DNA of 43,211 bases from a virus (IMGVR_UViG_3300033156_000223:1-43211), one strand, 5' to 3'. Positions 2,908 to 31,434 are shown, numbered from the stretch's first letter. Notes: generated from the sequence alone by a model not told the origin. A program made the numbers and translations.

Positions 2908-3095
2908 AGCTTCACCTCTCGATTAAGTTCTTTTTTTGCGGCCTTTAACAGCGTTCGCCGGCACCATTCAGAGATGTTGTACGTTGCCTGTTCCACTGAT
3001 ACAGCTCCAGCAGCAGCTTTATAAGCGGCTTGGTGGATTAAGAGCTTCTGCTCTGGCGTTACTTTCAAAATCAGGAATTTCTTTTTCGGTTTCAT
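2904..3095 (-). CDS. Small ribbon-helix-helix-like protein
   Basis: This 63-residue basic protein begins with a short strand ('KKFLILKVTPEQKLLI') followed by two predicted helices, the layout of Arc/MetJ-type ribbon-helix-helix regulators. The start at 3095 overlaps the stop of the DUF7666-like gene (ATGA), and its own stop overlaps the annealing-protein ATG (ATGA), so all three are probably translationally coupled. It may be an autoregulator of this operon; no direct proof. Confidence 0.55.
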   Translation of the reverse strand: MKPKKKFLILKVTPEQKLLIHQAAYKAAAGAVSVEQATYNISEWCRRTLLKAAKKELNREVKL

Positions 3096-3979
3096 GCTGT
3101 TCTCTCGAATTTCAGTTCGCCATTCTCGAACCAATACCAGGTATCTGCCTTGATTGTTACCCCCTTGATTTTTTCGCCTACCTTAGCAGCATACACACCT
3201 CGCAGGGTTCCATCATCTCCCCAGTCTGCCAATACGATAGCACCCCCAGGGCCTGCCTTAGTACGACTTCCACATCCCAAGGCACAAGCGATTGAGTTTT
3301 TTCCTGCTGTCGCCGAACGAGCATGATTGCCTGCTGTCGCCGAATGGGCATAATCGCCTGCCGTCGTGGAGCGAGCCCCATAGCCTGCCGTCGCCGAATG
3401 GGCGTAATAGCCTGACGTCGCAGAATGAGCGTAATCGCCTGCTGTCGCCGAACGAGCGTAATTGCCTGCTGTCGCAGAATGGGCCCCATTGCCTGCTGTC
3501 GCCGAATGAGCGTAATTGCCTGCCGTCGCAGAATGAGCGTTATCGCCTGCTGTCGCCGAACGAGCGTAATTGCCTGCTGTCGCAGAATGGGCCCCATTGC
3601 CTGCCGTCGCCGAATGAGCGTAATTGCCTGCCGTCGCAGAATGAGCGTAATCGCCTGCCATTATTGGTTTTACAGCTTTAATAAGTTCTTCCAGGTCGAT
3701 TTCGCGGATGAGTTTAATCTGGGAGGCACAAATCTTTGTATCTTTGCTGTTCTGGATTATTTTGCCCCCGACTTCCACTTCGAAGAATCGAGAATCAGCA
3801 GGACCGTAATATGTCCACACATCGAGCGGATTTATGCAGGCATGAAAACCCTGCCGGCACATTTCGATTTTCTCTTCCGGCATTGTATATATCTTGCCAA
3901 GCTCATATAGAAAACCGTAGCACCATATGTTCCTATCGGTTCCCTTATATGCCCTGGTCGGGTTATCTATCTGTTCCAT
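3092..3979 (-). CDS. DUF7666-like protein with a nine-residue tandem-repeat solenoid
   Basis: The N-terminal ~100 residues of this 295-residue protein match the phage DUF7666-type pattern ('AYKGTDRNIWCYGFLYELGK', 'CRQGFHACINPLDVWTYYGP', 'SRFFEVEVGGKI'). Residues 108-224 are 13 tandem copies of a nine-residue unit close to A-G-[ND]-Y-A-[HR]-S-A-T, which should form a small beta-solenoid. A C-terminal cap has 'GGAIVLADWGDDG'. The start at 3979 has AAGGAG 7 bases upstream and overlaps the end of the transglycosylase gene by 17 bases. No biochemical function is known to me. The operon position suggests an early, host-interaction or regulatory role. Confidence 0.7.
   Translation of the reverse strand: MEQIDNPTRAYKGTDRNIWCYGFLYELGKIYTMPEEKIEMCRQGFHACINPLDVWTYYGPADSRFFEVEVGGKIIQNSKDTKICASQIKLIREIDLEELIKAVKPIMAGDYAHSATAGNYAHSATAGNGAHSATAGNYARSATAGDNAHSATAGNYAHSATAGNGAHSATAGNYARSATAGDYAHSATSGYYAHSATAGYGARSTTAGDYAHSATAGNHARSATAGKNSIACALGCGSRTKAGPGGAIVLADWGDDGTLRGVYAAKVGEKIKGVTIKADTWYWFENGELKFERTA
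3308..3658 (-). repeat. 27-bp tandem repeat array (13 units) inside the DUF7666-like gene
   Basis: Thirteen adjoining 27-bp units encode the nine-residue repeats. Units alternate between a few near-identical variants, and one pair of four-unit blocks is almost duplicated. There are no unique spacers, so it is not a CRISPR array. Such an array can gain or lose units by slippage, and short reads may miscount it. Confidence 0.9.
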
Positions 3980-4517
3980 TTTGCGTCTCCTTTTCCAGCT
4001 TGTGCATGATTCGCATAACTCGTTCGGCGTAATTCCTCGTCGATTCCTTCTTCCATCCGTTCGGCCCGCCGTTGTGGATGCGAGCCAGGTCGGCGTAGCT
4101 GGCGAGATGATGCAATCGCGAGGGCCTGCCATACCAGGACAAATACGTTACGACCATCTGAGTCGCTTTTTCGAGGTCGTATCTATCCTGGGCCGCAAAG
4201 GGAGATAAACCCTGTAGTTTGCGGATGCGATTGACGTCCTGTAGATAGATAGGCCGGATTTGATACGGTCCCGCAGCCTGCTCGGCAGCATTGTAAGCAC
4301 GAAGATCGCCACCGGATTCGACAGCGACCAGGGCGGCGAGGAACATCCGCCATCTCATTTCTGGGTTGATTTGTGGAACTGGAGTAGAGCATTTTTGTGC
4401 TGGCGACAAGGATGATAGTGACGATACACAGGTCTTTGTGGGTAGTTTCCAAACGGCCAGCCCGACCAGTAAAATGAGCCAAGCCAGCAGCGTGATTGAT
4501 ACCAGTCTGATTTTCAT
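3963..4517 (-). CDS. Membrane-anchored lytic transglycosylase / endolysin, SLT-like
   Basis: Residues 5-25 form one transmembrane or signal-anchor helix in this 184-residue protein. The catalytic region has 'AVESGGD' (putative catalytic E67), 'AAGPYQIRP' and 'IHNGGPNGW', the usual E-S-x-G, G-x-x-Q-I and H-N-G-G blocks of lysozyme-like transglycosylases. It would cleave peptidoglycan glycan strands. The start at 4517 has AGGAG 7 bases upstream; two earlier in-frame Met codons lack one. It sits in the early operon rather than beside the holin at 5909, so a role in entry or host-wall remodelling is possible as well as lysis. Confidence 0.75.
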   Translation of the reverse strand: MKIRLVSITLLAWLILLVGLAVWKLPTKTCVSSLSSLSPAQKCSTPVPQINPEMRWRMFLAALVAVESGGDLRAYNAAEQAAGPYQIRPIYLQDVNRIRKLQGLSPFAAQDRYDLEKATQMVVTYLSWYGRPSRLHHLASYADLARIHNGGPNGWKKESTRNYAERVMRIMHKLEKETQNGTDR

Positions 4518-20525: not shown

Positions 20526-21608
20526 CTATGCAATGTCGAGTTCTACCACCAACACGCAAGCGTTTACGTTCTCAACAGCAACGTCAGCACGCATCGAGTA
20601 GAACCAGTATGTGGCTTCATCAGCAGCCTCCCTTTGCGCCTCGATCTTGATGGACCGCTGAATACCGACAATCAGATTATCCTTGGGAGTAAGCAGAAGT
20701 TCGGTGTGACTACCCCCGCCATACACCCCATCGTCATCCAGATTCGTGGGAATCAGCGGACAGGGCACGATAGGCACCTGGCCGAACTTGAGGCCCTTCT
20801 CGGCGCCGAGAATCGCCTGGTCACCCAGGATAGTAGACCTCGCAGCCAGGGCGTCAATGTAGTCTTGTACGACCTGGTCGTTGCAGCAGAACCTCAGATT
20901 ACTCAGGCCGGCCATCTTGTACTTCGACGGCAACGTCTTCAGGGGTTTGCTGAACTTGAATTCCCAGTTATACGGAGCCGAGCTATTCTGGGTAGCGATA
21001 CGCTGATTGACCGAACCCAGGTCAAAGTCCGAATCGGCATGAAGTATGTGAGACAGACCAGTCACAGCATTCTCATACGTATCTCCAGCCGTATCGGCAT
21101 TTCGGATGCGGTAACTCCAGCCATCCCACAGACTTCTGATATCGTCAGAACCGAACCCGCTGTGACCGGCAGTGTCACCGATATAGAACGCCTCTTCAAG
21201 CTCGTTGGCGATCTTGGCCGCTACCATCCTCATAACCTGGTCCTTGAAGGCGGCAGCAGATTCGATGCCTGTGACGTCTTCCAGGTCATCGTCGTATATT
21301 GCGACACAGCCCCGGACCTTCTTGCTGGTCAGCGTAATCTTCTCCGTTGTCAATTCTTTGAGATAGTTCGACGAGCTAAAGGTCGAAGCGGGCCTGAGAA
21401 ACTTGCCCGTGCCGACACCGAGAGCCCTGATATTCTTAGTCTCGCGGGTCATCTTGACCGTGCGAGCTACGTTCTTCATCAACACTGATTCATCGACAAT
21501 GTAATCGATGAACCTGTCGGCTTCCTCCGCTTCCAGACTGATAGAAGGAAGGGAAACCATTTTTTGGATAAACTCTTTTTTCTTAAGCAATGCGCCATTC
21601 GTTTTCAT
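20526..21608 (-). CDS. Major capsid protein, HK97 fold
   Basis: 360 residues. The N-terminal ~40 residues are a helical arm. The core has 'RGCVAIYDDDLEDVTGIESA', 'VMRMVAAKIANELEEAFYIG', 'LRFCCNDQVVQDYIDALAAR' and a C-terminal 'QREAADEATYWFYSMRADVA' followed by 'AVENVNACVLVVEL', typical of P-domain/A-domain elements of HK97-like capsid proteins in the P2-N-like branch. AGGAG lies 6 bases before the ATG. It follows the scaffold gene directly. No separate delta domain is obvious, as expected when a dedicated scaffold is encoded. Confidence 0.85.
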   Translation of the reverse strand: MKTNGALLKKKEFIQKMVSLPSISLEAEEADRFIDYIVDESVLMKNVARTVKMTRETKNIRALGVGTGKFLRPASTFSSSNYLKELTTEKITLTSKKVRGCVAIYDDDLEDVTGIESAAAFKDQVMRMVAAKIANELEEAFYIGDTAGHSGFGSDDIRSLWDGWSYRIRNADTAGDTYENAVTGLSHILHADSDFDLGSVNQRIATQNSSAPYNWEFKFSKPLKTLPSKYKMAGLSNLRFCCNDQVVQDYIDALAARSTILGDQAILGAEKGLKFGQVPIVPCPLIPTNLDDDGVYGGGSHTELLLTPKDNLIVGIQRSIKIEAQREAADEATYWFYSMRADVAVENVNACVLVVELDIA

Positions 21609-21617
21609 GTCAAACTC

Positions 21618-22214
21618 CTATCCAAATACCTTGATGCTGGGCCAAGGATCCTTTACATCCTTGTCCTTCGAGTCATCGTCGTCATCTTCTGAATCTTGTC
21701 CCTCGACGCTTTTACGTATTCCTACGCCTTTCTCGATTTCCTCCAGGCGCTTGGCAATGGCCTCAAGTTTTGTGGCCTGCTGCTTATTCGTATGTTCCTC
21801 AAGGGACTCGATAGACTTTGAAATCTTCTCAAGAACGCCGTTCAGTACCTCATCCGAGTCCGCATTGGACATGCTCTTCTGCTTTGGTTCCGGCAGGACA
21901 CTTCTCAGGGCCTCCAGTGCCTCAATCGCCTTTTTCAGCTTTTCCAGGGTATCCTTGGAAAACTTGGCTCCTGCCTTTGAAACTGCATCTTTAGTCTTCT
22001 TTGCGGGATAGCCGTATCCATAGCCGGCATACTTAGCCAAGGTCCCGACAGCATCCTGAAGATCTTTGGGGAAATCCTTGCGATATTTATTGACCGTAGA
22101 CAGTGCTTCCTTGATGGCCTTAAGGGCCTCGTCCGAAAGCTCTGCCTTGGTGAAGTCAATCTTGGCTTCTTCGCCAAAATACTCTTGCAGCAATTTTGCG
22201 AGTTCGTCATCCAT
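21618..22214 (-). CDS. Internal-start scaffold product (nested in the longer gene)
   Basis: In-frame ATG at 22214 preceded by AAAGGGG with about 8 bases spacing. The product would begin '[18 protein letters not shown]' and cover the coiled-coil scaffold region only (198 residues). This mirrors nested scaffold genes in lambda-type heads; whether it is made must be tested. Confidence 0.45.
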
Positions 22215-22721
22215 AATGTTTACCCCTTTTACCAAATAAAATGTTTCCGTATGTCTGAACTTGTTTTCTTCTGAAGTTATCTTGGAATAAGAGCAGGAAA
22301 CCGGCGATACATCGTTTTTGTCTTTCGCATTGTAGAAATAGAAGTTGAAATCCTGAAGGTCGGTAAGAGCGTTCCCGTTGACGAGTATCCTTGTGCCCTT
22401 TACAGTCCCATCGCTCTCAATCGAGAGCTTCAGTTCATTCTGCTTGTCTACTTTTACAATGGACCCTTGCATGGGAGTTCCGCATTTGGGACATTTGATT
22501 TCCGTACACGGCACCGATTTCCCTTCGCCTGCTTTCTCGTGTGGTATTGTATATCCACAGTTCGGGCATATACACGTATCCGAGCCGCCATCGGCCTGGG
22601 CTGGACCGCCGACGCCCCTACCTGCCCCTCGTGCCTTGTAGAACAGGAACCTCTTTTTGTTCGCGGGAGCATCGGTAAGGGACACTTCTACCACTTCCAT
22701 GTCTTTGAGTTCTCTCGCCAT
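21618..22721 (-). CDS. Scaffold-type protein with zinc ribbon and internal start
   Basis: 367 residues. Residues 1-30 ('[20 protein letters not shown]') match the tail found after XkdF-type prohead proteases. Residues about 50-90 hold two C-x-x-C pairs ('CICPNCGYT', '[10 protein letters not shown]'), a zinc ribbon. Residues 170-367 are an acidic coiled-coil scaffold. An internal in-frame ATG at 22214 (residue 170) has AAAGGGG upstream and would give a 198-residue scaffold-only product, like lambda C/Nu3. The C-terminus is Asp-rich. It acts during procapsid assembly and is probably cleaved by the neighbouring protease. Confidence 0.7.
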
Positions 22722-22735
22722 TTTCGACTCCTAAG

Positions 22736-25700
22736 CTAAACAGCCTCGGCATAACCTGCCATGCTGTATCCAATTAGTTTGCCCGCCTTGACGGCTTCCC
22801 AAGCATCTTTATCCAAGATTTTAGTAGTCAACAGCCAACTGCCCTTTTTGACTTTCTGGCCTGCAATAACTAAATCCTGGGGAGCAATATAGCTTTCGAG
22901 CACTTTCGCCTTTATCGGCCTGCCGTGATGGTTGAGTTTATACTGCTGTGCATGTTCCATAAAGTAATATGCAGCTTTTCGTATCTCTTCTTCGGAGGCC
23001 GAATCGCCCTGAGCATCTACAGTATCAGGTTCATATACCACCCCACAGACGATTTGTTCATCCGCCTTTTTGATGAATATAGGTACATATTTTTCTATGT
23101 CAAGCTTAGAAATCATCCAAACACGACCTTCTTTAACAGGCACATAGGCGAATAAGTATACTCCATCAGTTAAAACCTTGCAACCAGTAAGTTTAATCTT
23201 TTTAGCGTGCTTGTCAGACTGAATCATCTCGAAATCGAAATAATCCAGCGCTATCATAATACTATACGTATTCGCGAAAGCACCTACTTCTCCCGGCTCG
23301 ATTATCTCCACACGGTCCTTGCCTACATCCATCCAGCTAACCGGGCCGCGTATAGTTTCCGCTGTCGGGTCTTCGACATGCGGAGTTTTCCATCCGAATC
23401 GCAGCTTGGCCTTATCTTCCAGCAGCTTCCTGAGCTTGGTCAGTCCCGATATGTTGCCGACCATTATCTCGCCGCCCTCGAAGTAATCATCCCCCTCGCG
23501 CACCAGTCGTAAATCCAAATGACAAGCCTGCTCTCCAATAGTCTCTTTCAGTATCTTCTGGAGCTTTAAGTAGTCGTGCCTGGCTTCAAAGATTTCTTTG
23601 GCGTGCTCTTTTAGGGCGTCAATGTATTTTTCTTCTATCCCCATCACATGCAACTGCAAAACGCCTTTGCCGGTATCCCCGACTTTGTAGTCGATGTTGC
23701 CTTCCACCTCGGCTTTTTGGAGGATATTGCCGCGAGATGCCAGGGCCACAACCTGATTGGCATAATACGGCGTTGACCGATCCGAGTCGATATCGATAAC
23801 CCTGGGCCCTAACCAGTCTAATTCGTCTCTTGCAATGATTTCCTCTACTCCCACAGTTAGAATATCACCTACATTAGCTTTCAACTTCGTATTGAAAGTT
23901 TTGCCTAACACGACGTAGGTTTCACCGCCGATCTCTTTGGTATTGGTATAGGAAGAATCGCCCGCTAAAACACCTACAGTATAATTATATGTGCCGGCTT
24001 TTGTTTTGTGCACGTCTAATACTATAACCTTAATCTCTGCCTCCAGTTTGATTTTTGACCAGTCCTCGGCACTGCCGTCGGTGTCCCAGATGGAATCCAG
24101 GGCCTTAATCACCACCCCTTCGCTTTGCGGGAGCTTCGAGAGGTCCTCGAAAGCCTTGGTAAGCTGCATCCTGTTCTTGGCAATCCTGAAATGTGTCAAT
24201 GTAAAATTGCGGCTTCCCTTGAGATACTTACCGAAGAACTCCTCCAAGAGCTTCCTGCGCTCCTCAAGGGGGACCAGGTGCTTATCTGTCTTCCAATACG
24301 GAAGATCGAAGCATGCGGCTACGATGTATTCATCTTCATCCAATTCCAGCTCATCCGACATGAGAGTCATCAGTTGGATTCGGGGCAATGGTTTCGTGCC
24401 TTTGTTGATGCCTATGCTCATATCCAAAATGAAGTCGTCGGGTATTTGCTCCAAGACCTCTCGTAATTCAGCGAACTGTTTTGTTCTGTTCTTTCTGCCT
24501 TCTGTCCAAATAGCTAACTTGTTATCCTTCTTTTCTGCAATAACCCTGAAACCGTTCAGCTTTTCTTCAACATCTACTGGCCATCGTTTCTCTACCCAGT
24601 CTTGGATATCCTCATATTTGAAGGCTTCGGTGATATTAGACATGGCAGGCTTCGGAGGTATGTATCTGCCAAATGGTCTTAGCCTCGACTTCTTGGCATC
24701 TACTACTATAACAGCAGTGTTGGTATCCTGTATTTTACGCACTTTGACGCAGCTGCTTAGCTTAGAGGGCTTGATTAAGTCCTCCTCAAGCTGGTCTACG
24801 GAGTCATATTCTTGTTTGTGTGTAGGGTCGAAACGCTTTCCCAAAGGCACTATGAATACACATGCTCGCTTGGCTATCTGTCGAGATTTCTGAAGAATAG
24901 CCACAGGGTCATCCAGATGTTCAAGCAGATGGACACCGATAACATTATCAAACCCACCAGCTTCATAAGGTAGCTCCTCCTTTTCGATATCGAGCTTGCT
25001 GACTTTGAGGCCCTTGGCCTTACTCATCTTAACAGCGAGGTCCTCCTTATCAACGCCTGTTACCCGATAAATGCTTGACAACCGTTTTTCGAGTCTCCCC
25101 GTGCCACAACCCAATGATAACACCGTATCGCCCTGCAAGTACTTGGTTAGTTCGCGGTATTCCACCTCGAAATCGTCAGACCATTCATCGAGACCGTCAT
25201 AGTACTCTTGCAGTGACTTCTTATAGTCTTCTTCCACCACTACCTTATTGAGTTCCGATTTTGGTCTAAGTACCAGGTCGTATAGCGGGAGATACGTAGC
25301 GTGAGGGCCTTTTGTGGAGTATATAAACTCTTTGCCTTTTTTTGCCAAAGTGTCTTGTTTGTCTAATGTCCTGACGAGTTTAAGTTCAAGCCCGGTGTCC
25401 CTATTTCTCTCATCTTCGCGCAGGAGAATGTCCACATCGTTCGCGTCATTCAAATTGGATACTCCAGAGCCAACGAGCGAAACGTAATCTGGCACCACCA
25501 CCATTGTATCCAACATCGAAATATCGAATCCGATTTTGGCAATTTCCATGGACCTCTTAAATGCTGCCCTATCGATATCTTCGGTGCTGTGCTCGAGCTT
25601 GCGTTTGTTGTACTCCCTGAGAAGCAGCCTGTACTTCGCCAGGAAATCGGAACGGTTCAGGCTACCGACTACTACCTTATCATTGTCCTTGAAATTTTTG

Positions 25701-25792
25701 TTCCATAGCTGGATTTGCCTCAGGCGAAGTGCTAATAACTCCCGATTGGGCGCTTTGGCTAAACTTTCGCGAGTAATGTCTTCGATACGCAT
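22736..25792 (-). CDS. Five-domain fusion: nucleotidyltransferase-like, SAM methyltransferase, ATP-dependent DNA ligase, LigD-type phosphoesterase, XkdF capsid protease
   Basis: 1018 residues. Residues about 95-180: pol-beta-type nucleotidyltransferase signature 'LVGSGVSNLNDANDVDILL'. Residues 215-345: Rossmann methyltransferase with 'VLSLGCGTGRLEKRL' and 'IGVHLLEHLDDP'. Residues 395-660: ATP-dependent DNA ligase with motif I 'EEKLNGFR' (nucleophile K411), motif IV 'EGVVIKA' (558-564), motif V 'WSKIKLE' (K580, K582) and an OB fold; the motif III region reads 'FILDMSIGI', without the usual acidic residue. Residues 695-900: LigD-type 3'-phosphoesterase with 'HLDLRL' (H758) and 'EPGEVGAF'. Residues 905-1018: XkdF-like serine protease ('CGVVYEPDTVDAQGD', H954/H955, S1010 in 'GYSMAGYA'). 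It lies exactly where the prohead protease gene should be. Confidence 0.8.
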   Translation of the reverse strand: MRIEDITRESLAKAPNRELLALRLRQIQLWNKNFKDNDKVVVGSLNRSDFLAKYRLLLREYNKRKLEHSTEDIDRAAFKRSMEIAKIGFDISMLDTMVVVPDYVSLVGSGVSNLNDANDVDILLREDERNRDTGLELKLVRTLDKQDTLAKKGKEFIYSTKGPHATYLPLYDLVLRPKSELNKVVVEEDYKKSLQEYYDGLDEWSDDFEVEYRELTKYLQGDTVLSLGCGTGRLEKRLSSIYRVTGVDKEDLAVKMSKAKGLKVSKLDIEKEELPYEAGGFDNVIGVHLLEHLDDPVAILQKSRQIAKRACVFIVPLGKRFDPTHKQEYDSVDQLEEDLIKPSKLSSCVKVRKIQDTNTAVIVVDAKKSRLRPFGRYIPPKPAMSNITEAFKYEDIQDWVEKRWPVDVEEKLNGFRVIAEKKDNKLAIWTEGRKNRTKQFAELREVLEQIPDDFILDMSIGINKGTKPLPRIQLMTLMSDELELDEDEYIVAACFDLPYWKTDKHLVPLEERRKLLEEFFGKYLKGSRNFTLTHFRIAKNRMQLTKAFEDLSKLPQSEGVVIKALDSIWDTDGSAEDWSKIKLEAEIKVIVLDVHKTKAGTYNYTVGVLAGDSSYTNTKEIGGETYVVLGKTFNTKLKANVGDILTVGVEEIIARDELDWLGPRVIDIDSDRSTPYYANQVVALASRGNILQKAEVEGNIDYKVGDTGKGVLQLHVMGIEEKYIDALKEHAKEIFEARHDYLKLQKILKETIGEQACHLDLRLVREGDDYFEGGEIMVGNISGLTKLRKLLEDKAKLRFGWKTPHVEDPTAETIRGPVSWMDVGKDRVEIIEPGEVGAFANTYSIMIALDYFDFEMIQSDKHAKKIKLTGCKVLTDGVYLFAYVPVKEGRVWMISKLDIEKYVPIFIKKADEQIVCGVVYEPDTVDAQGDSASEEEIRKAAYYFMEHAQQYKLNHHGRPIKAKVLESYIAPQDLVIAGQKVKKGSWLLTTKILDKDAWEAVKAGKLIGYSMAGYAEAV

Positions 25793-26104: not shown

Positions 26105-26151
26105 AGTTTTTACTCCACAACAGGTAAAAGTACGCATCTGCAATTTAGCTA
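26105..26151 (-). other. In-frame amber and residual MuF 3' coding sequence
   Basis: After CAC CCA the minus strand reads TAG CTA AAT TGC AGA TGC and continues in the same frame to TAA at 26105. The residues after the TAG ('LNCRCVLLPVVE') complete the H-P-x-C-x-C signature of the MuF family. The TAG lies at 26151-26149. Confidence 0.75.
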
Positions 26152-26943
26152 TGGGTGGGCAGGGATGAGATTTCTTGCCCTGCCCACACTATAAATCCTC
26201 CCATCTAAACTATCACAATAATTACAGCATCCCGGATATGCAGAGAACTCTACTTCATCTACGCCCGAGTCTTTGAGCCCTTCTACGTAGCCGAGGTTCT
26301 GAGCCCGGGCGGTTTCAGTTCGTGCGATGGTTTGCATTCTGCGTCGCCGTGTCTTATCTGCATATCGTTGCACTCTTTTATCTATGTCTCTATCAGAAAG
26401 CTCGGGGTGTTTTGCTTTCAGCATAGACCTGTAGTTTATGACAGATTCTGTCTGTAGCTTGGTGAGCCCGACTATTGACCTAAGCTCGCGGGCAATCTTG
26501 CTCATAGATTTGCCTTCTTTGATCCCGGACTTGATGTAGGCACGAATACCCTTGCGGGTTTGGCCGTTTACTTCGCGGACCAGCTTGGCGGTAAACTTTT
26601 CTGCCGCTTTGACGGACCGAACATTAACTACGTCGAAAGTAGCCGCTATATCAAGAATGTTATACGCGACATTGCCCCCGTCTTTCATAATAGTCAGGGT
26701 AGCGGGCTTAAGTATGTCTTGGCCTCGTTCCCGTAGATACTCCCAGTCAGTAAGCTCGCTTGCTACATCCTTGATGAACATGACCTTGATAAACTTCTTA
26801 GTCAAATCTGCTTGTATCTGCTTAACGGTGAGGGCAAACCATTTCTGCACAGCTTCCTGAAATATCTTTTCGTTGCGCCGCAAATGCCAATCTAATTTAC
26901 GGTGCACGGAGTTCAGCCTGACTTTGTACGTAGCAAACTTCAT
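26149..26943 (-). CDS. MuF-like head morphogenesis / minor capsid protein, ends at an in-frame TAG inside its zinc motif
   Basis: 264 residues. 'RRMQTIARTETARAQNLGYV' and 'GCCNYCDSLDGRIY' are conserved MuF-family blocks (the family C-terminus normally ends in a metal motif H-P-x-C-x-C). Here the reading frame gives 'NLIPAHP', then TAG CTA, then codons for N-C-R-C-V-L-L-P in the same frame (26148-26105). So a six-base insertion creating an amber codon lies inside H-P/N-C-R-C. The product as read lacks the last two Cys ligands unless the amber is read through. It follows the portal gene, the standard order. Confidence 0.8.
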   Translation of the reverse strand: MKFATYKVRLNSVHRKLDWHLRRNEKIFQEAVQKWFALTVKQIQADLTKKFIKVMFIKDVASELTDWEYLRERGQDILKPATLTIMKDGGNVAYNILDIAATFDVVNVRSVKAAEKFTAKLVREVNGQTRKGIRAYIKSGIKEGKSMSKIARELRSIVGLTKLQTESVINYRSMLKAKHPELSDRDIDKRVQRYADKTRRRRMQTIARTETARAQNLGYVEGLKDSGVDEVEFSAYPGCCNYCDSLDGRIYSVGRARNLIPAHP

Positions 26944-26978: not shown

Positions 26979-28295
26979 TTATCCGCCCTCAGGCTCCGAC
27001 TCTCCCGATTCTATCAGATTGCTCGCAATGTAGAACTTATTTCCTTCGTCGTAGGGGTCCATGCCCAAAGCAACACGCGCCTCGTTGGGAGTCAATATGC
27101 CAAACTGTACTTGCTTGATGATCTGGTCTACTTCTTCCGCCCGATTGCGTAAGTCTATATCCTCAAACTTGAATTGGTATACATCGGATTGTAGCAGCTT
27201 CCCATTGATAATATCTTCTATGTCATTTTGCAAAGGCTCGACTACACTTTTGACATAGACCCGAGTAGCTTCTTCAGCGACGTTCCCGCCCAGCTTGCCT
27301 ACCACACGTATGCCCACCCGCTCAGGCGGCATCGAATATGCGATGAGTATGCTGTCCCTTCTGTTTTGCTCGTACAGTCGAAAGCTCGCTTCTTGGGCGG
27401 TAGAATTTATTGGGATGTATGTAAACTTGCAGTTGTCCGGCTGCGTTACTACCAGTGTCTTGTGCGCATTCTCAGTGCCTCTTATCTCCCGGTTCAGGAA
27501 TTCAGTAATGCGACGATCCGAATCCTCCTCCCAGTCACCTTCCAGGATTATGATGGCGGAAGGCACCCCATAGTTCTCGAAAAATGCCAGGTTATAGTCC
27601 CGCAGGCCCATAAGGCCGAGAACGTCGCCAACGGTACTGATGAAATTGGGAACGCCATAATAATCGCTCTTGGCATAGTCGTTGCGATAGAAGATTAGTT
27701 CGTTCGCCCTGGTCTTTAGCGGATACTTGCCTTCCTTGCCGGTCTCCAGAGATATATCCGCAGGGAACCCGAACTTCTTGAACCATATCTTCTTCGTCCC
27801 TCGAATCTGGCAGTACTTCGTCTGTGATTTATGAACTCTTATCGTGTGTGCAGGGACATGGTATAATGCTACGATATCGCCTTGAAGATTGCGAACCACC
27901 TCCATGCAACACCAGCCTACAGAGCCCCAATCCTTCAGCATTCTGCGTATGATAGTGCGGAAATAATCTTCCTCATTTGGCCTGTGCAAAAGCTGGGTAA
28001 TCCTCTCCTTTTCCTGGACCGATTCCTTTTGGTTCTCTTTTAGCTGTAAGGTCCAGCCAAGACCGGCGACATCTGCCGCTAACTGGTTGACGCAACGAAA
28101 CAGTACCGAATTGGATTCGTATAAGGCCAGCAAGGTATCCGGGGAATACGGAGGCTCAACGAGGCCCTGCTCAAAGGCCCAAGTCGCCTCTTTCTTCAGC
28201 TGCTTGGAAGCGCTGTAATCTTGTGCCTTTCGGAGAAACGAATACGGGTAAATGCCTTTCGTAGTTTTGACAAATACCTTGCCCTTAGCCGACAT
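26979..28295 (-). CDS. Portal protein
   Basis: 438 residues with HK97-type portal blocks: 'YESNSVLFRCVNQLAADVAG', 'YYGVPNFISTVGDVLGLMGL', 'FFENYGVPSAIIILEGDWEE' and 'LTPNEARVALGMDPYDEGNK'. Twelve copies form the DNA entry ring at one capsid vertex. AAAGGGG precedes the ATG at 28295. The start overlaps the TerL stop by 11 bases, the usual TerL-portal order. Confidence 0.88.
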   Translation of the reverse strand: MSAKGKVFVKTTKGIYPYSFLRKAQDYSASKQLKKEATWAFEQGLVEPPYSPDTLLALYESNSVLFRCVNQLAADVAGLGWTLQLKENQKESVQEKERITQLLHRPNEEDYFRTIIRRMLKDWGSVGWCCMEVVRNLQGDIVALYHVPAHTIRVHKSQTKYCQIRGTKKIWFKKFGFPADISLETGKEGKYPLKTRANELIFYRNDYAKSDYYGVPNFISTVGDVLGLMGLRDYNLAFFENYGVPSAIIILEGDWEEDSDRRITEFLNREIRGTENAHKTLVVTQPDNCKFTYIPINSTAQEASFRLYEQNRRDSILIAYSMPPERVGIRVVGKLGGNVAEEATRVYVKSVVEPLQNDIEDIINGKLLQSDVYQFKFEDIDLRNRAEEVDQIIKQVQFGILTPNEARVALGMDPYDEGNKFYIASNLIESGESEPEGG

Positions 28296-31200
28296 AAATA
28301 GACCCCTTTCTACCAGGTCTGTCTACAGAATATATGACATATCTCAAGGCGTCACAATTACTTACAAGAATGCTGTTCGCATAGTACTCATGGACTGTAT
28401 CTACAGTCAGGTTGTAGACGGGCGCCTTGCCTGCTCTTTTTGCGCCTAAATAGACCACCGCATTTTCGGGAACAGCATTTTGTCTTGCTGTATTTGTTGG
28501 TTGAAAACTGCTTTTTGCATATAATGCAGGTTCTGATTTCGTTATCAACTTGGTTTTCCCGTCGCCAAGCAGATTTGCACTTATTGGAGCAAAATCTGGT
28601 ATTATTTCTCCGGGCCATATCATTATATTTTTTGCCACACTGTATACATGTCTTAACCAGCGGTTTGCGCTTCTTATAGATCTCTTTAGCATGTTGGCTA
28701 TGCCATTTGCGGCCCTTAATGGATCTGTGCCATTCGGCAGCCGCCTGAAGGATTTCTGGGCGTAGCCTTGAACCTTTTGGGTTGTTGCGTCTGGAGTGTT
28801 CGCTTTTATGTAAACGACTCTCTTTGAGTTCAAGGTTATCGAGCTCGTTATTGAGCGGATTCCCGTCTTTATGATGGATCTCATAACCTTCAGGAATTTC
28901 GCCATAAGCATCTTTCCAGATTTCCCTGTGTAGGTACCGGGTGCCGAATTCTGGATGCCAGCTGGCTCGGTAGTATACTTTATCTGCCCATACTGTTGAA
29001 TCGGGGTATCTTCTATATGGCACATCTTTGTATATGATTTTTTCGTGTAGCATGATGATACTATTGTGTCTCCATATCTCAAATCCACCAGAGGAATAAA
29101 TCCTTTTCCCTGTACATATATCGGATGTTCTTTTGTGCCCGTAAGCTCACTGCCGTCGGAAAAGGCGACTGTTATTACATCAGCATTATTATATGTCATC
29201 CCTGATGCAACTACTGGATAATACCCCTGCCTTGTCAAAACTTTATCGCCTCGCTGTATTTGCTCAATAGGTTTTTCGCCTTCTTGCGTCTCTATAAGCG
29301 TCCCCGCAACAAAGCATGTGTGGTCGTTCTTTGGCATCGGCAGGTCCTGGGCGTTTCTCTGCTTCGATGCCGAAGGATAACTGTATGTGGCAAGCTCCCT
29401 ACAAGTGTTCCTGCAATTGTTGAAGATGTACAAGCCCGGTTTGCCGTTCTCTCGTATCTTCAACTTCGCCTGGACGGTCTCGATACCTCTGGCAACGTCT
29501 TTTCTGGCCGGCTTTGTCGGGATACCAGCCTTGCGAAGTGCGGCCCGGTCCGCTGCATTCTCCGGGTCTGCCCAGGATTCTATGTAATGCTCGTCGCCGC
29601 TGAGCCTCAGAATGTTCCCGATGTGCTCGTCAATCCCCGTTTTGGCCTTGTAGTACTCTCGATACACATACCAGACGTTGTCTTTATCCTTGGTCATCCA
29701 CAGACACACAAACGGATTCGTGAAGCCGAAATCAAAGCCTCGATACTTAGGCCACCCTTCGGGAATTTCAAACGGCTTGATGACATGAGTTCTACGATTG
29801 AACGTCTTGTATACCGCTCCGTAGAACGAGGCGAATTCACCTCTTATGCGTGTAGCTTGCACCTCCTCGGGCCAGTCATCAATCATGGCGTCGATTCTCT
29901 CGTCTGGTATGTAGCCGCCTAATGATACACGATTCGAGTTAAGGTCGGCGTAGAATACCTCGTCCGTGTCCGGCAGGTCCTCAATACGCTCTTCCAAGTA
30001 CGGCTGGGGTATAATGGGCGTCATGGACCAGGAAAGTCTGCCGGATTTGGCCAACAACCTTGCTTGAATTTCGTTGAAAATGCCTTGAAAATCGTGGTGA
30101 CACTGTTCGTCGCAATAGCAAGAATCTATGGCTCGGCCCTGGAAGAGGTCCCTACCCTGGTTGAATGCCTTAAATTCTATGCGGGAGCCGTTCTTTAACA
30201 GTACCCTGCGTGGCACCCTGTCCTGGCCGTAGTTGATACTGAATATCTGGTGCGGAGGGATAAACCTCTTGAGATTCGATTCCCACAAAATATCCCTGAC
30301 CTGCTCCCAGCTTTCGATACACGCCCAATGCAGCCCATTCTTGACGGTCCTGGCAGGATGCACCCCCATCACTAACATTGCCAGGTCCATCATGTTAGTA
30401 AACGTCTTGCCGCTATTGTGGTGAATGATGCCGCCTGCTAAATAGTTGTGGAAATGCGGTACAGTAAAATCCCAAATGTAATCAAAACGCTTGACCTCCA
30501 CACTTGTTACCGCTATAATGCCTTTGCTATCGCTTTTAGGAGTACAGCATGAAACGGAAACTTCCTCTTCGAGATCGTGGCAAAAAGCCGAAATGCTGGG
30601 ACTATCCGGTTGAGTCCATACGGCAGTGGATCGCACAGGGCAAAACGCAGGCATGGATTGGAAACAAGCTCGGCGTAAGTCCAAAGCTGATTTATAAAGT
30701 TTGCAAAAAACACGGTATAAAGTGTCAAAGGCGAGGGCCGAGATCCGGCACCAAACATCCAAATTGGAAGGGCGGTCGAATCGTTGACAAGGATGGTTAT
30801 ATATTATGTTACTGCCCTGGGCATCCTCACGCCCGCCGCCATAGCAACTATGTCTTCGAGCATCGCTTAGTGATGGAGTATCATTTAGGTCGATATCTAT
30901 TGCCCAATGAAGTGGTTCACCACAAAAACGGCAATAAGAGCGATAACCAGCTTGCGAACCTTCAACTTTTTTCGAGCAATGCAGAGCATCTTCGGAAAGA
31001 GCTAAAGGGTCGTTGCCCGGAATGGACGGAGGCTGGAAAAGAAAAGATCCGACTCGCAATTCAGAAATCCGCTGCCATTCGCCGGAAACGCCTAAAACTA
31101 AATGGTCCCCTGAGCAGGTGATCGTTTGTCCATTTGACAGACGTAGCCTGTAAAGCTGTGCTTTCTCTTTCTTGAACGGCGTATTTGCCGATGCAATGAC

Positions 31201-31434
31201 TACCTTTTGGCCGTCAAAGGCGTAAACATGAAAGGGCCTGGTTCTCTCTGATACGGGGATACTTGTTTTTTCTACGGGATCGTAAATCGGCTGTTCGCCG
31301 CCAAGACACTGATTCCCCCCAAAGAACCACCTGATAGGAGCTTGAGACAAGTGGAAGTCACGCCGCACTTTATCTAATGGATGATAAAGCGCCAACTCTT
31401 CGCCCAACCATTTAATCTCTGGAATAGCCAACAT
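28285..31434 (-). CDS. terL: Terminase large subunit carrying two inteins
   Basis: 1049 residues as translated; about 431 after removal of two inteins. Extein ATPase: 'IRWFFGGNQ' joined to 'SGKTFT' (Walker A), 'RAIDSCYCDEQ' (Walker B region, residues 434-444). Extein nuclease: 'GFDFGFTNPF' and 'PKNDHT' joined to 'CDALRY'. Intein 1 = residues 43-340, inserted in the P-loop; intein 2 = residues 707-1026, inserted in the last nuclease motif. Both are sites where loss of splicing would abolish activity. The motor packages DNA into the procapsid. The gene overlaps the stop of the upstream structural gene closely and the portal ATG by 11 bases. Confidence 0.9.
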   Translation of the reverse strand: MLAIPEIKWLGEELALYHPLDKVRRDFHLSQAPIRWFFGGNQCLGGEQPIYDPVEKTSIPVSERTRPFHVYAFDGQKVVIASANTPFKKEKAQLYRLRLSNGQTITCSGDHLVLGVSGEWQRISELRVGSFLFQPPSIPGNDPLALSEDALHCSKKVEGSQAGYRSYCRFCGEPLHWAIDIDLNDTPSLSDARRHSCYGGGREDAQGSNIIYNHPCQRFDRPSNLDVWCRISALAFDTLYRVFCKLYKSALDLRRACFQSMPAFCPVRSTAVWTQPDSPSISAFCHDLEEEVSVSCCTPKSDSKGIIAVTSVEVKRFDYIWDFTVPHFHNYLAGGIIHHNSGKTFTNMMDLAMLVMGVHPARTVKNGLHWACIESWEQVRDILWESNLKRFIPPHQIFSINYGQDRVPRRVLLKNGSRIEFKAFNQGRDLFQGRAIDSCYCDEQCHHDFQGIFNEIQARLLAKSGRLSWSMTPIIPQPYLEERIEDLPDTDEVFYADLNSNRVSLGGYIPDERIDAMIDDWPEEVQATRIRGEFASFYGAVYKTFNRRTHVIKPFEIPEGWPKYRGFDFGFTNPFVCLWMTKDKDNVWYVYREYYKAKTGIDEHIGNILRLSGDEHYIESWADPENAADRAALRKAGIPTKPARKDVARGIETVQAKLKIRENGKPGLYIFNNCRNTCRELATYSYPSASKQRNAQDLPMPKNDHTCFVAGTLIETQEGEKPIEQIQRGDKVLTRQGYYPVVASGMTYNNADVITVAFSDGSELTGTKEHPIYVQGKGFIPLVDLRYGDTIVSSCYTKKSYTKMCHIEDTPIQQYGQIKYTTEPAGIQNSAPGTYTGKSGKMLMAKFLKVMRSIIKTGIRSITSSITLNSKRVVYIKANTPDATTQKVQGYAQKSFRRLPNGTDPLRAANGIANMLKRSIRSANRWLRHVYSVAKNIMIWPGEIIPDFAPISANLLGDGKTKLITKSEPALYAKSSFQPTNTARQNAVPENAVVYLGAKRAGKAPVYNLTVDTVHEYYANSILVSNCDALRYVIYSVDRPGRKGSIYVG
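28357..29316 (-). other. Intein 2 of TerL (320 residues), C-terminal nuclease motif site
   Basis: Begins with Cys ('CFVAGTLIETQEG', block A), has block B 'GTKEHPIYVQGKGF', block F 'APVYNLTVDTVHEYYANS' and ends 'ILVSN' followed by Cys as first extein residue. The penultimate residue is Ser rather than the usual His. The middle ~210 residues do not look like a conserved domain in this frame; instead an HNH gene is encoded in another frame over 28388-29053. Confidence 0.88.
28388..29053 (-). CDS. HNH homing endonuclease nested out of frame in TerL intein 2
   Basis: 221 residues, same strand as TerL but in a different reading frame. HNH_3-type core 'YLHREIWKDAYG', 'EGYEIHHKDGNPLNNELDNL' (H60, H61) and a following His-rich helix. 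Two zinc-finger repeats follow: C136/C139 with C155/C159 and C176/C179 with C193/C198. The only SD-like GGAG lies 16 bases before the ATG, so initiation may be weak or coupled to TerL translation. It probably cleaves intein-less terL alleles to spread the intein. Confidence 0.85.
   Translation of the reverse strand: MLHEKIIYKDVPYRRYPDSTVWADKVYYRASWHPEFGTRYLHREIWKDAYGEIPEGYEIHHKDGNPLNNELDNLELKESRLHKSEHSRRNNPKGSRLRPEILQAAAEWHRSIKGRKWHSQHAKEIYKKRKPLVKTCIQCGKKYNDMARRNNTRFCSNKCKSAWRRENQVDNEIRTCIICKKQFSTNKYSKTKCCSRKCGGLFRRKKSRQGARLQPDCRYSP
30415..31308 (-). other. Intein 1 of TerL (298 residues), Walker A site
   Basis: Begins with Cys 43 ('CLGGEQPIYDPVEKTSIPV', block A), block B 'TITCSGDHLVLGVSGEWQ', block F 'FDYIWDFTVPHFHNYLAG' and ends 'IIHHN', followed by Ser as first extein residue. 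Splicing joins GGNQ to SGKT and restores the P-loop. The ~190 residues between splicing halves are low-complexity-like in this frame because that DNA encodes an HNH endonuclease on the other strand. Confidence 0.9.
30549..31121 (+). CDS. HNH homing endonuclease encoded antisense within TerL intein 1
   Basis: 190 residues on the plus strand, the only confidently coding plus-strand gene. Residues 20-60 are a helix-turn-helix ('WIGNKLGVSPKLIYKVCKKH'). Residues 68-150 are an HNH_3-type nuclease with 'KHPNWKGGRIVDKDGYI', 'FEHRLVMEYHLGRYL' and 'EVVHHKNGNKSDNQLANL' (H124/H125). It has its own ribosome binding site (AGGAG, 6 bases before the ATG at 30549). It exactly fills the space between intein splicing blocks B and F, while the opposite strand stays open for the intein. 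Confidence 0.9.
   Translation: MKRKLPLRDRGKKPKCWDYPVESIRQWIAQGKTQAWIGNKLGVSPKLIYKVCKKHGIKCQRRGPRSGTKHPNWKGGRIVDKDGYILCYCPGHPHARRHSNYVFEHRLVMEYHLGRYLLPNEVVHHKNGNKSDNQLANLQLFSSNAEHLRKELKGRCPEWTEAGKEKIRLAIQKSAAIRRKRLKLNGPLSR

Follow-up and report, generated by a model that had tools for sequence, protein, structure and literature searches.

A viral head polyprotein that joins nucleotidyltransferase, methyltransferase, DNA ligase and LigD-type phosphoesterase modules to an XkdF capsid protease

Why would a virus attach a chain of nucleic acid enzymes to the protease of its capsid? The question is raised by a gene for a 1018-residue protein in a stretch of tailed-virus DNA of 43,211 nucleotides (IMGVR_UViG_3300033156_000223), hereafter the window. 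A first-pass annotation, made from the sequence alone, placed this gene at the protease position of the head operon and read its product as a nucleotidyltransferase (NTase), a SAM-dependent methyltransferase (MTase), an ATP-dependent ligase carrying K-L-N-G-F-R and a phosphoesterase (PE) with the H-x-D-x-R signature of LigD, ending in an XkdF-type prohead protease. Pfam, relatives and predicted structure bear out all five domain calls. The gene is an unbroken, ATG-started open reading frame (ORF) on the minus strand; the plus-strand frame over the same coordinates holds no ORF and was rejected. From the N to the C terminus, the product comprises a Pol-beta-type NTase, a SAM MTase, the nucleotidyltransferase domain of an ATP-dependent DNA ligase with its OB fold, a LigD-type PE and the XkdF protease (Table 1; module borders were placed by alignment to the window protein). 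Three modules match Pfam families in this order, each above the curated cut-off: Methyltransf_11 (residues 225-313, 9.7e-10), DNA_ligase_A_M (394-582, 2.7e-14) and Peptidase_S78_2/XkdF (906-1017, 1.7e-29). The NTase and the PE had no match in the Pfam scan of the window protein, and both were therefore tested through relatives and structure. In the AlphaFold model of the whole protein (pLDDT 80.8), confidence falls at residues 172-191, 692-699 and 899-903.

Table 1. Modules of the polyprotein and neighbouring head genes in the window
Feature	Coordinates	Strand	Basis
Whole polyprotein gene, 1018 aa	22736..25792	-	ORF, homologues
Module 1 (residues 1-192): N-terminal helices and probable Pol-beta-superfamily NTase, G108-S/G ... 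D119-x-D121 ... D172	25217..25792	-	Alignment, Pfam match of L030, PDB profile
Module 2 (residues 193-371): Rossmann SAM-dependent MTase (Methyltransf_11)	24680..25216	-	Pfam
Module 3a (residues 372-585): ATP-DNA-ligase nucleotidyltransferase domain; K411-L-N-G-F-R416, FDLPY, S-E558-G559, K580-x-K582	24038..24679	-	Pfam, profile, Foldseek, alignment
Module 3b (residues 586-694): ligase OB-fold domain	23711..24037	-	Strand-rich in AF2 model, Foldseek match length
Linker at OB/PE junction (residues 692-699), insert site in several relatives	23696..23719	-	pLDDT < 50
Module 4 (residues 695-897): LigD-type 3'-phosphoesterase, H715, H758-x-D760-x-R762	23102..23710	-	Alignment, AlphaFold, Foldseek
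Module 5 (residues 903-1018): XkdF/Peptidase_S78_2 head maturation protease; invariant H955, S1010	22739..23086	-	Pfam, phrog, alignment
Terminase large subunit, two intein/Hint regions; upstream neighbour	28285..31434	-	Pfam/phrog
Portal protein; upstream neighbour	26979..28295	-	Pfam/phrog
MuF-like minor head protein, ends at in-frame TAG; upstream neighbour	26149..26943	-	Pfam/phrog
Small conserved protein, hydrophobic C-terminal stretch; also adjoins polyprotein gene in L001, L002, L005	25797..26102	-	ORF comparison
Scaffold-like protein, matches C-terminal part of phrog_3017; downstream neighbour	21618..22721	-	phrog
Major capsid protein candidate (phrog_1623); downstream neighbour	20526..21608	-	phrog

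The gene lies between the MuF/portal genes and those for the scaffold and the major capsid protein, which is indeed the protease position of the head operon, and the two invariant residues of module 5 are shared across the family and with psiM100 and Laroye. In phrog_3017, protease and scaffold form a single gene, the N-terminal part of which matches module 5 and the C-terminal part the gene next to it. With the two halves thus divided between the polyprotein end and its neighbour, the head protease seems, on sequence comparison, to have been separated from its own scaffold and attached to an enzyme chain. An XkdF domain occurs once per record, inside the polyprotein or its split half, in 18 of 19 virus records (the sequence of the remaining one, L029, ends early). 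The PF01068 ligase is likewise found once in each of the 19 records, and in 18 of them within the polyprotein gene or a split half; the virus of L019 has a polyprotein devoid of the ligase module and a separate 291-aa ligase of the canonical type.

Two neighbouring genes have peculiarities of their own. The terminase gene, with its intein/Hint regions, is overlapped by HNH-type ORFs (28388-29053, minus strand; 30549-31121, plus strand). The MuF-like gene is interrupted at 26125-26160 (minus strand) by an in-frame TAG within a conserved HP[ND]CRC motif (LIPAHP*LNCRCVLLPVVE*), the frame resuming after TAG-CTA; the same site is unbroken in L001 and carries an intein exactly there in L009. A scar, amber readthrough or an error are possible explanations.

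A search of IMG/VR with the single window sequence returned two contigs, one of which (L001), from an independent metagenome, encodes the complete protein as a single ORF, in the same gene order and with 64% identity over residues 1-1017. Successive profile searches reached 5, 9, 21 and then 35 loci. The relatives beyond the window are found on approximately 39 IMG/VR contigs, some of them repeat assemblies of one virus, and on three MAG contigs labelled Thermoplasmatota, Desulfobacterales and Aminicenantes, which were obtained by profile search, the genome-contig search with the single window sequence having yielded no match. Typically, the gene again resides between MuF and scaffold/capsid genes.

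Among the relatives, modules are gained and lost at inter-domain borders, and these inserts and losses coincide with the borders at which AlphaFold confidence drops. L013 lacks exactly the ligase+OB unit, and L031 has neither MTase nor ligase and retains the NTase and the PE; thus, the polyprotein does not in every case require the ligase. The MTase is missing from L051/L052. A D12 DNA adenine methyltransferase follows the NTase in L008 and L025 (Pfam) and in L032 (by eye), and the 2137-aa polyprotein of L030 (5066-11476) contains three of them in that place, along with at least three other inserted units. A Cys-rich unit, probably zinc-binding, is located at the MTase/ligase border in L005 and at the OB/PE border in L011, L017, L020, L023 and L030. 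The latter border holds an ADP-ribosyltransferase-like unit (by eye) in L007, where the polyprotein is split into two genes; in L010, L019, L020, L027 and L028 the split lies elsewhere. The ligase, PE and MTase modules are under purifying selection, with dN/dS of about 0.05-0.16 in most pairs of close relatives; values for the NTase are 0.08-0.34, and in the L001/L002 pair the NTase and MTase differ at too few sites for a useful estimate. These two viruses are otherwise nearly identical, with dS of 0.21 in the ligase versus 0.01 in the NTase and MTase, a contrast that suggests module-wise recombination.

The PE was modelled on its own with an alignment of 31 relatives as input (pLDDT 92.1, pTM 0.88), and Foldseek returned a sole significant match in the PDB, the archaeal LigD 3'-phosphoesterase 3p43 (E 1.2e-4, probability 1.00, target TM 0.72). 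H715, H758, D760 and R762 are invariant among the 31 relatives and align with the residues that bind metal and phosphate in LigD PE. Fold match and invariant residues together substantiate the H-x-D-x-R signature read from the sequence; the beta-barrel fold, the metal-binding His, the His-x-Asp and the Arg of the LigD PE superfamily are all present. The D-H-P-x-x-Y motif of LigD PE, with its phosphate-binding His and Tyr, is changed and reads RGPVSW in the window in the hhalign register. Nothing in the window matched PF13298, the Pfam family of LigD PE, and an hhalign comparison with 15 bona fide LigD PE sequences was in register but weak and below significance; the identity of the module is settled by its predicted structure only, not by a sequence profile. 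Among viral predicted structures, Foldseek matched the PE model to one protein, A0A516LT18 (3.5e-4).

All 24 aligned relatives, among them the archaeal virus ANMV-1, share G108, D119, D121 and D172 of the NTase, which make up the Pol-beta superfamily motif, G-[GS] ... D-x-D and a third Asp. Moreover, L030 matches DNA_pol_B_palm (8.5e-5, slightly below the curated Pfam cut-off), and the NTase profile has a weak match to DNA polymerase beta in the PDB (E 0.17). On these grounds module 1 is assigned to the Pol-beta superfamily with moderate confidence.

The profile of the ligase matched the DNA ligase of A. fulgidus in the PDB (3gde, 6.6e-13), a Foldseek search with the ligase region of the model retrieved DNA ligases from archaea and human (E 3e-16, approximately 350-490 columns), and all 50 of the 50 Foldseek matches listed for the window model are ligases. 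The match span, longer than the nucleotidyltransferase domain alone, is consistent with AdD plus OB. The structure models therefore contain both the ligase and the PE fold. Across 19 sequences, that of ANMV-1 among them, there is no variation in K411, which is the lysine of motif I as had been proposed, in the FD of motif IIIa, in E558-G559 or in K580-x-K582, and hardly any in R416. The canonical motifs KxDG and DGE are absent from the window and intact only in divergent members: in the main clade, motif I has become KLN[GSA], with Asn in place of Asp (KLNG in the window), and motif III D[MFCG][SGN], with S, N or G in place of Glu (DMS in the window). Because the divergent L051 retains KFDGFR and LDGEL, and ANMV-1 KFDG and GEL, the ancestral module looks like an ordinary DNA ligase, the activity of which may have been altered or lost in the window's clade. 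Taken further, these replacements would make the window-clade ligase a domain that binds nicks or ends but has no catalytic activity, and leave the NTase and PE as the working core. The loss of the ligase in L013 and L031 and the canonical stand-alone ligase of the L019 virus agree with this reading, but K411, R416, the EG and the KxK have been kept and dN/dS in the ligase is 0.05-0.12, so that we find a dead ligase doubtful, if a serious contender.

LigD, the bacterial NHEJ ligase, has the architecture POL-PE-LIG. The first-pass annotation described the ligase and PE as the core of such a LigD, and this holds only by analogy: a ligase (AdD+OB), a LigD-type PE and a nucleotidyl-transferring domain are combined in one protein. 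However, the polymerase type of the window protein is a Pol-beta NTase, whereas that of LigD is of the archaeo-eukaryotic primase type, for which the window protein has no Pfam or NCBIfam domain; no Ku partner was found in the 19 virus records searched, which may be fragments; the KxDG Asp and DGE Glu are missing, these motifs being altered throughout the clade; and an MTase and a head protease are added. Given the polymerase type, Ku and the ligase motifs, identification of the protein as LigD was rejected. A functional analogy is provided by the mycobacteriophages Omega and Corndog, in which, according to Pitcher et al. 2006 as cited in PMC7719229, phage Ku and host LigD circularise the genome. 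There, too, end-joining enzymes act on the phage's own genome ends, but in that account a phage Ku borrows the LigD of the host, whereas here a LigD-like set without Ku is encoded by the virus, within its head module.

The closest general precedent is that of the polyvalent proteins of phages and conjugative elements (Iyer et al. 2017; PMC5512222), which combine many enzymatic domains per polypeptide, are encoded with virion genes, have mosaic architectures in which an assemblin-like peptidase is always C-terminal, and are predicted to be packaged and injected. The window protein resembles them in carrying at least two distinct enzymatic domains, in the mosaic architecture of its relatives, and in its location among virion genes with the peptidase at the C terminus. 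By contrast, we found the set of NTase, MTase, DNA ligase and LigD PE nowhere in the text of PMC5512222, where all three mentions of ligases concern RNA ligases. Since the modules are mosaic and the polyprotein holds the sole XkdF (19 records) and, in 18, the sole ATP ligase, the family constitutes a new lineage among the polyvalent proteins of viral heads, of a general kind already known. In the open-licence literature (subscription papers and preprints were outside the scope), we found no report of this module set on a capsid protease, and nothing on the combination beyond polyvalent, MuF and Nudix fusions.

Simpler fusions do exist. Gp18 of the cultured Arthrobacter phage Laroye joins a 2H phosphoesterase to XkdF, and fusions of Nudix to a capsid-processing peptidase and of effectors to head proteins have been published (PMC9503650). 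In these cases, as here, the head protease is preceded by, or otherwise fused to, an enzyme acting on nucleotides or nucleic acids, but each has one small domain and lacks ligase, PE and NTase. XkdF proteins labelled "DNA methyltransferase" were rejected as precedents: those of Pakpunavirus (156 aa) and a Rhizobium phage (212 aa) contain XkdF alone according to Pfam, and that of an Escherichia phage (139 aa) is equally short, for which reasons the label looks like a misannotation. A distant version of the polyprotein is AJP62006 of ANMV-1, annotated as "ATP-dependent DNA ligase" and not discussed in the virus's own paper. It shares the order NTase-ligase-OB-PE-like (22-24% identity over the aligned ligase-PE region, the PE by eye) but has neither MTase nor XkdF; even so, its NTase-ligase adjoins the portal gene, with a MuF-like C-terminus downstream. 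The gene beside the ligase (L003:5868-9368) encodes a 1166-aa Cys-rich repeat protein in which that MuF-like C-terminus was recognized by eye and has no Pfam MuF match.

What, then, might the polyprotein do? We give roughly even weight to its being a head polyprotein of modular, polyvalent type that is packaged, cut and delivers DNA-end enzymes acting on incoming viral DNA. Synthesized alongside the capsid proteins, it would be brought into the procapsid through the XkdF protease at its C terminus, and cleavage at the flexible junctions would release the NTase, MTase, ligase and PE, which would stay in the particle, enter the cell with the DNA and act on it there. The PE would clean 3' ends, the Pol-beta-type NTase add or fill in nucleotides, and the ligase module seal nicks or join ends, while the methyltransferases would modify DNA or another target; such a LigD-like toolkit would have been assembled independently of LigD. 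The D12 DNA methyltransferases of L008, L025, L030 and L032 point to DNA as the target and, taken with the DNA-ligase fold and the LigD PE, to viral DNA as the substrate. Packaging, self-cleavage and repair activity are all plausible predictions, the first two fitting the gene order, the low-pLDDT linkers, the modular indels and the concept of polyvalent proteins (PMC5512222). The novel packaged DNA-repair system of the first-pass annotation is accordingly treated as a hypothesis. Its boldest form is a virion-delivered, Ku-independent end-joining machine in which a Pol-beta-type polymerase, PE and ligase freed by the capsid protease trim, fill and seal the genome on entry, LigD-like chemistry having converged on a capsid protease; this we entertain tentatively, as a possibility with less than an even chance.

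Injected modules could serve other ends than repair. As polyvalent effectors, they might alter or block the defences of the host (nucleotide signals, tRNA/RNA cleavage, restriction), with the ligase and NTase perhaps acting on RNA. We consider this unlikely, as the ligase module is nearest to archaeal and eukaryotic DNA ligases with OB, D12 methyltransferases are enzymes that act on DNA, and LigD PE acts on DNA 3' ends; it is suggested by the ADP-ribosyltransferase-like domain at the junction in L007 and L019, the adjoining fusion of MuF and ADP-ribosyltransferase in L005, the phosphoesterase-XkdF fusion of Laroye gp18 and the view of polyvalent proteins as conflict effectors (PMC5512222). Less probable still is a role confined to assembly in the infected cell, be it end processing of packaged DNA or the provision of scaffold volume, with the modules destroyed or expelled at maturation and none delivered. 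XkdF proteases process scaffold, and the polyprotein gene directly precedes the scaffold gene, but the modules are swapped as units, and, unlike filler, they are under purifying selection, with the enzymatic residues of NTase and PE invariant. A chimeric assembly, including an artificial join of two genes, or chance motif matches can be dismissed with near certainty, because independent metagenomes show the same ORF and gene order, full-length single-ORF homologues such as L001 are joined by many more, the structure matches are significant, and we found no point in favour.

If, as in the preferred reading, the modules are packaged, these viruses send enzymes that process DNA ends into the cell along with the genome and do not depend on the host's repair at the earliest point of vulnerability. 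Nature would then offer a rule for getting foreign enzymes into capsids, namely to join them to the head protease at a junction that stays fixed, and the many unrelated enzymes in front of XkdF would be explained. The published prediction that polyvalent proteins are cut by C-terminal capsid peptidases becomes directly testable, the family being of considerable size and conserved, and its biochemical predictions clear. As for the cleavage site, [ILVF]QK occurs 69 times in 44 proteins versus 26.5 expected by composition and clusters at the OB/PE border, an excess confounded by homology, and a QK[AS] junction motif is only a lead as a candidate site.

Further observations concern other parts of these genomes. 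A GxGSGxxGHxGRPGxVGGS-like linker precedes the ADP-ribosyltransferase-like domain at a module border in L007 (10001-12706) and L019 (8346-9596) and possibly tags head-linked effectors for packaging or cleavage; GHAGRPG appears in no open-licence paper searched. In L005 (6303-9515), the MuF protein beside the polyprotein has an ADP-ribosyltransferase domain (Pfam) and two more by eye. Finally, 13 copies of a 27-bp repeat at 3303-3658 of the window encode repeats of the type A-G-N-Y-A-H-S-A-T that follow a DUF7666 domain, in a protein at 3092-4132 on the minus strand.
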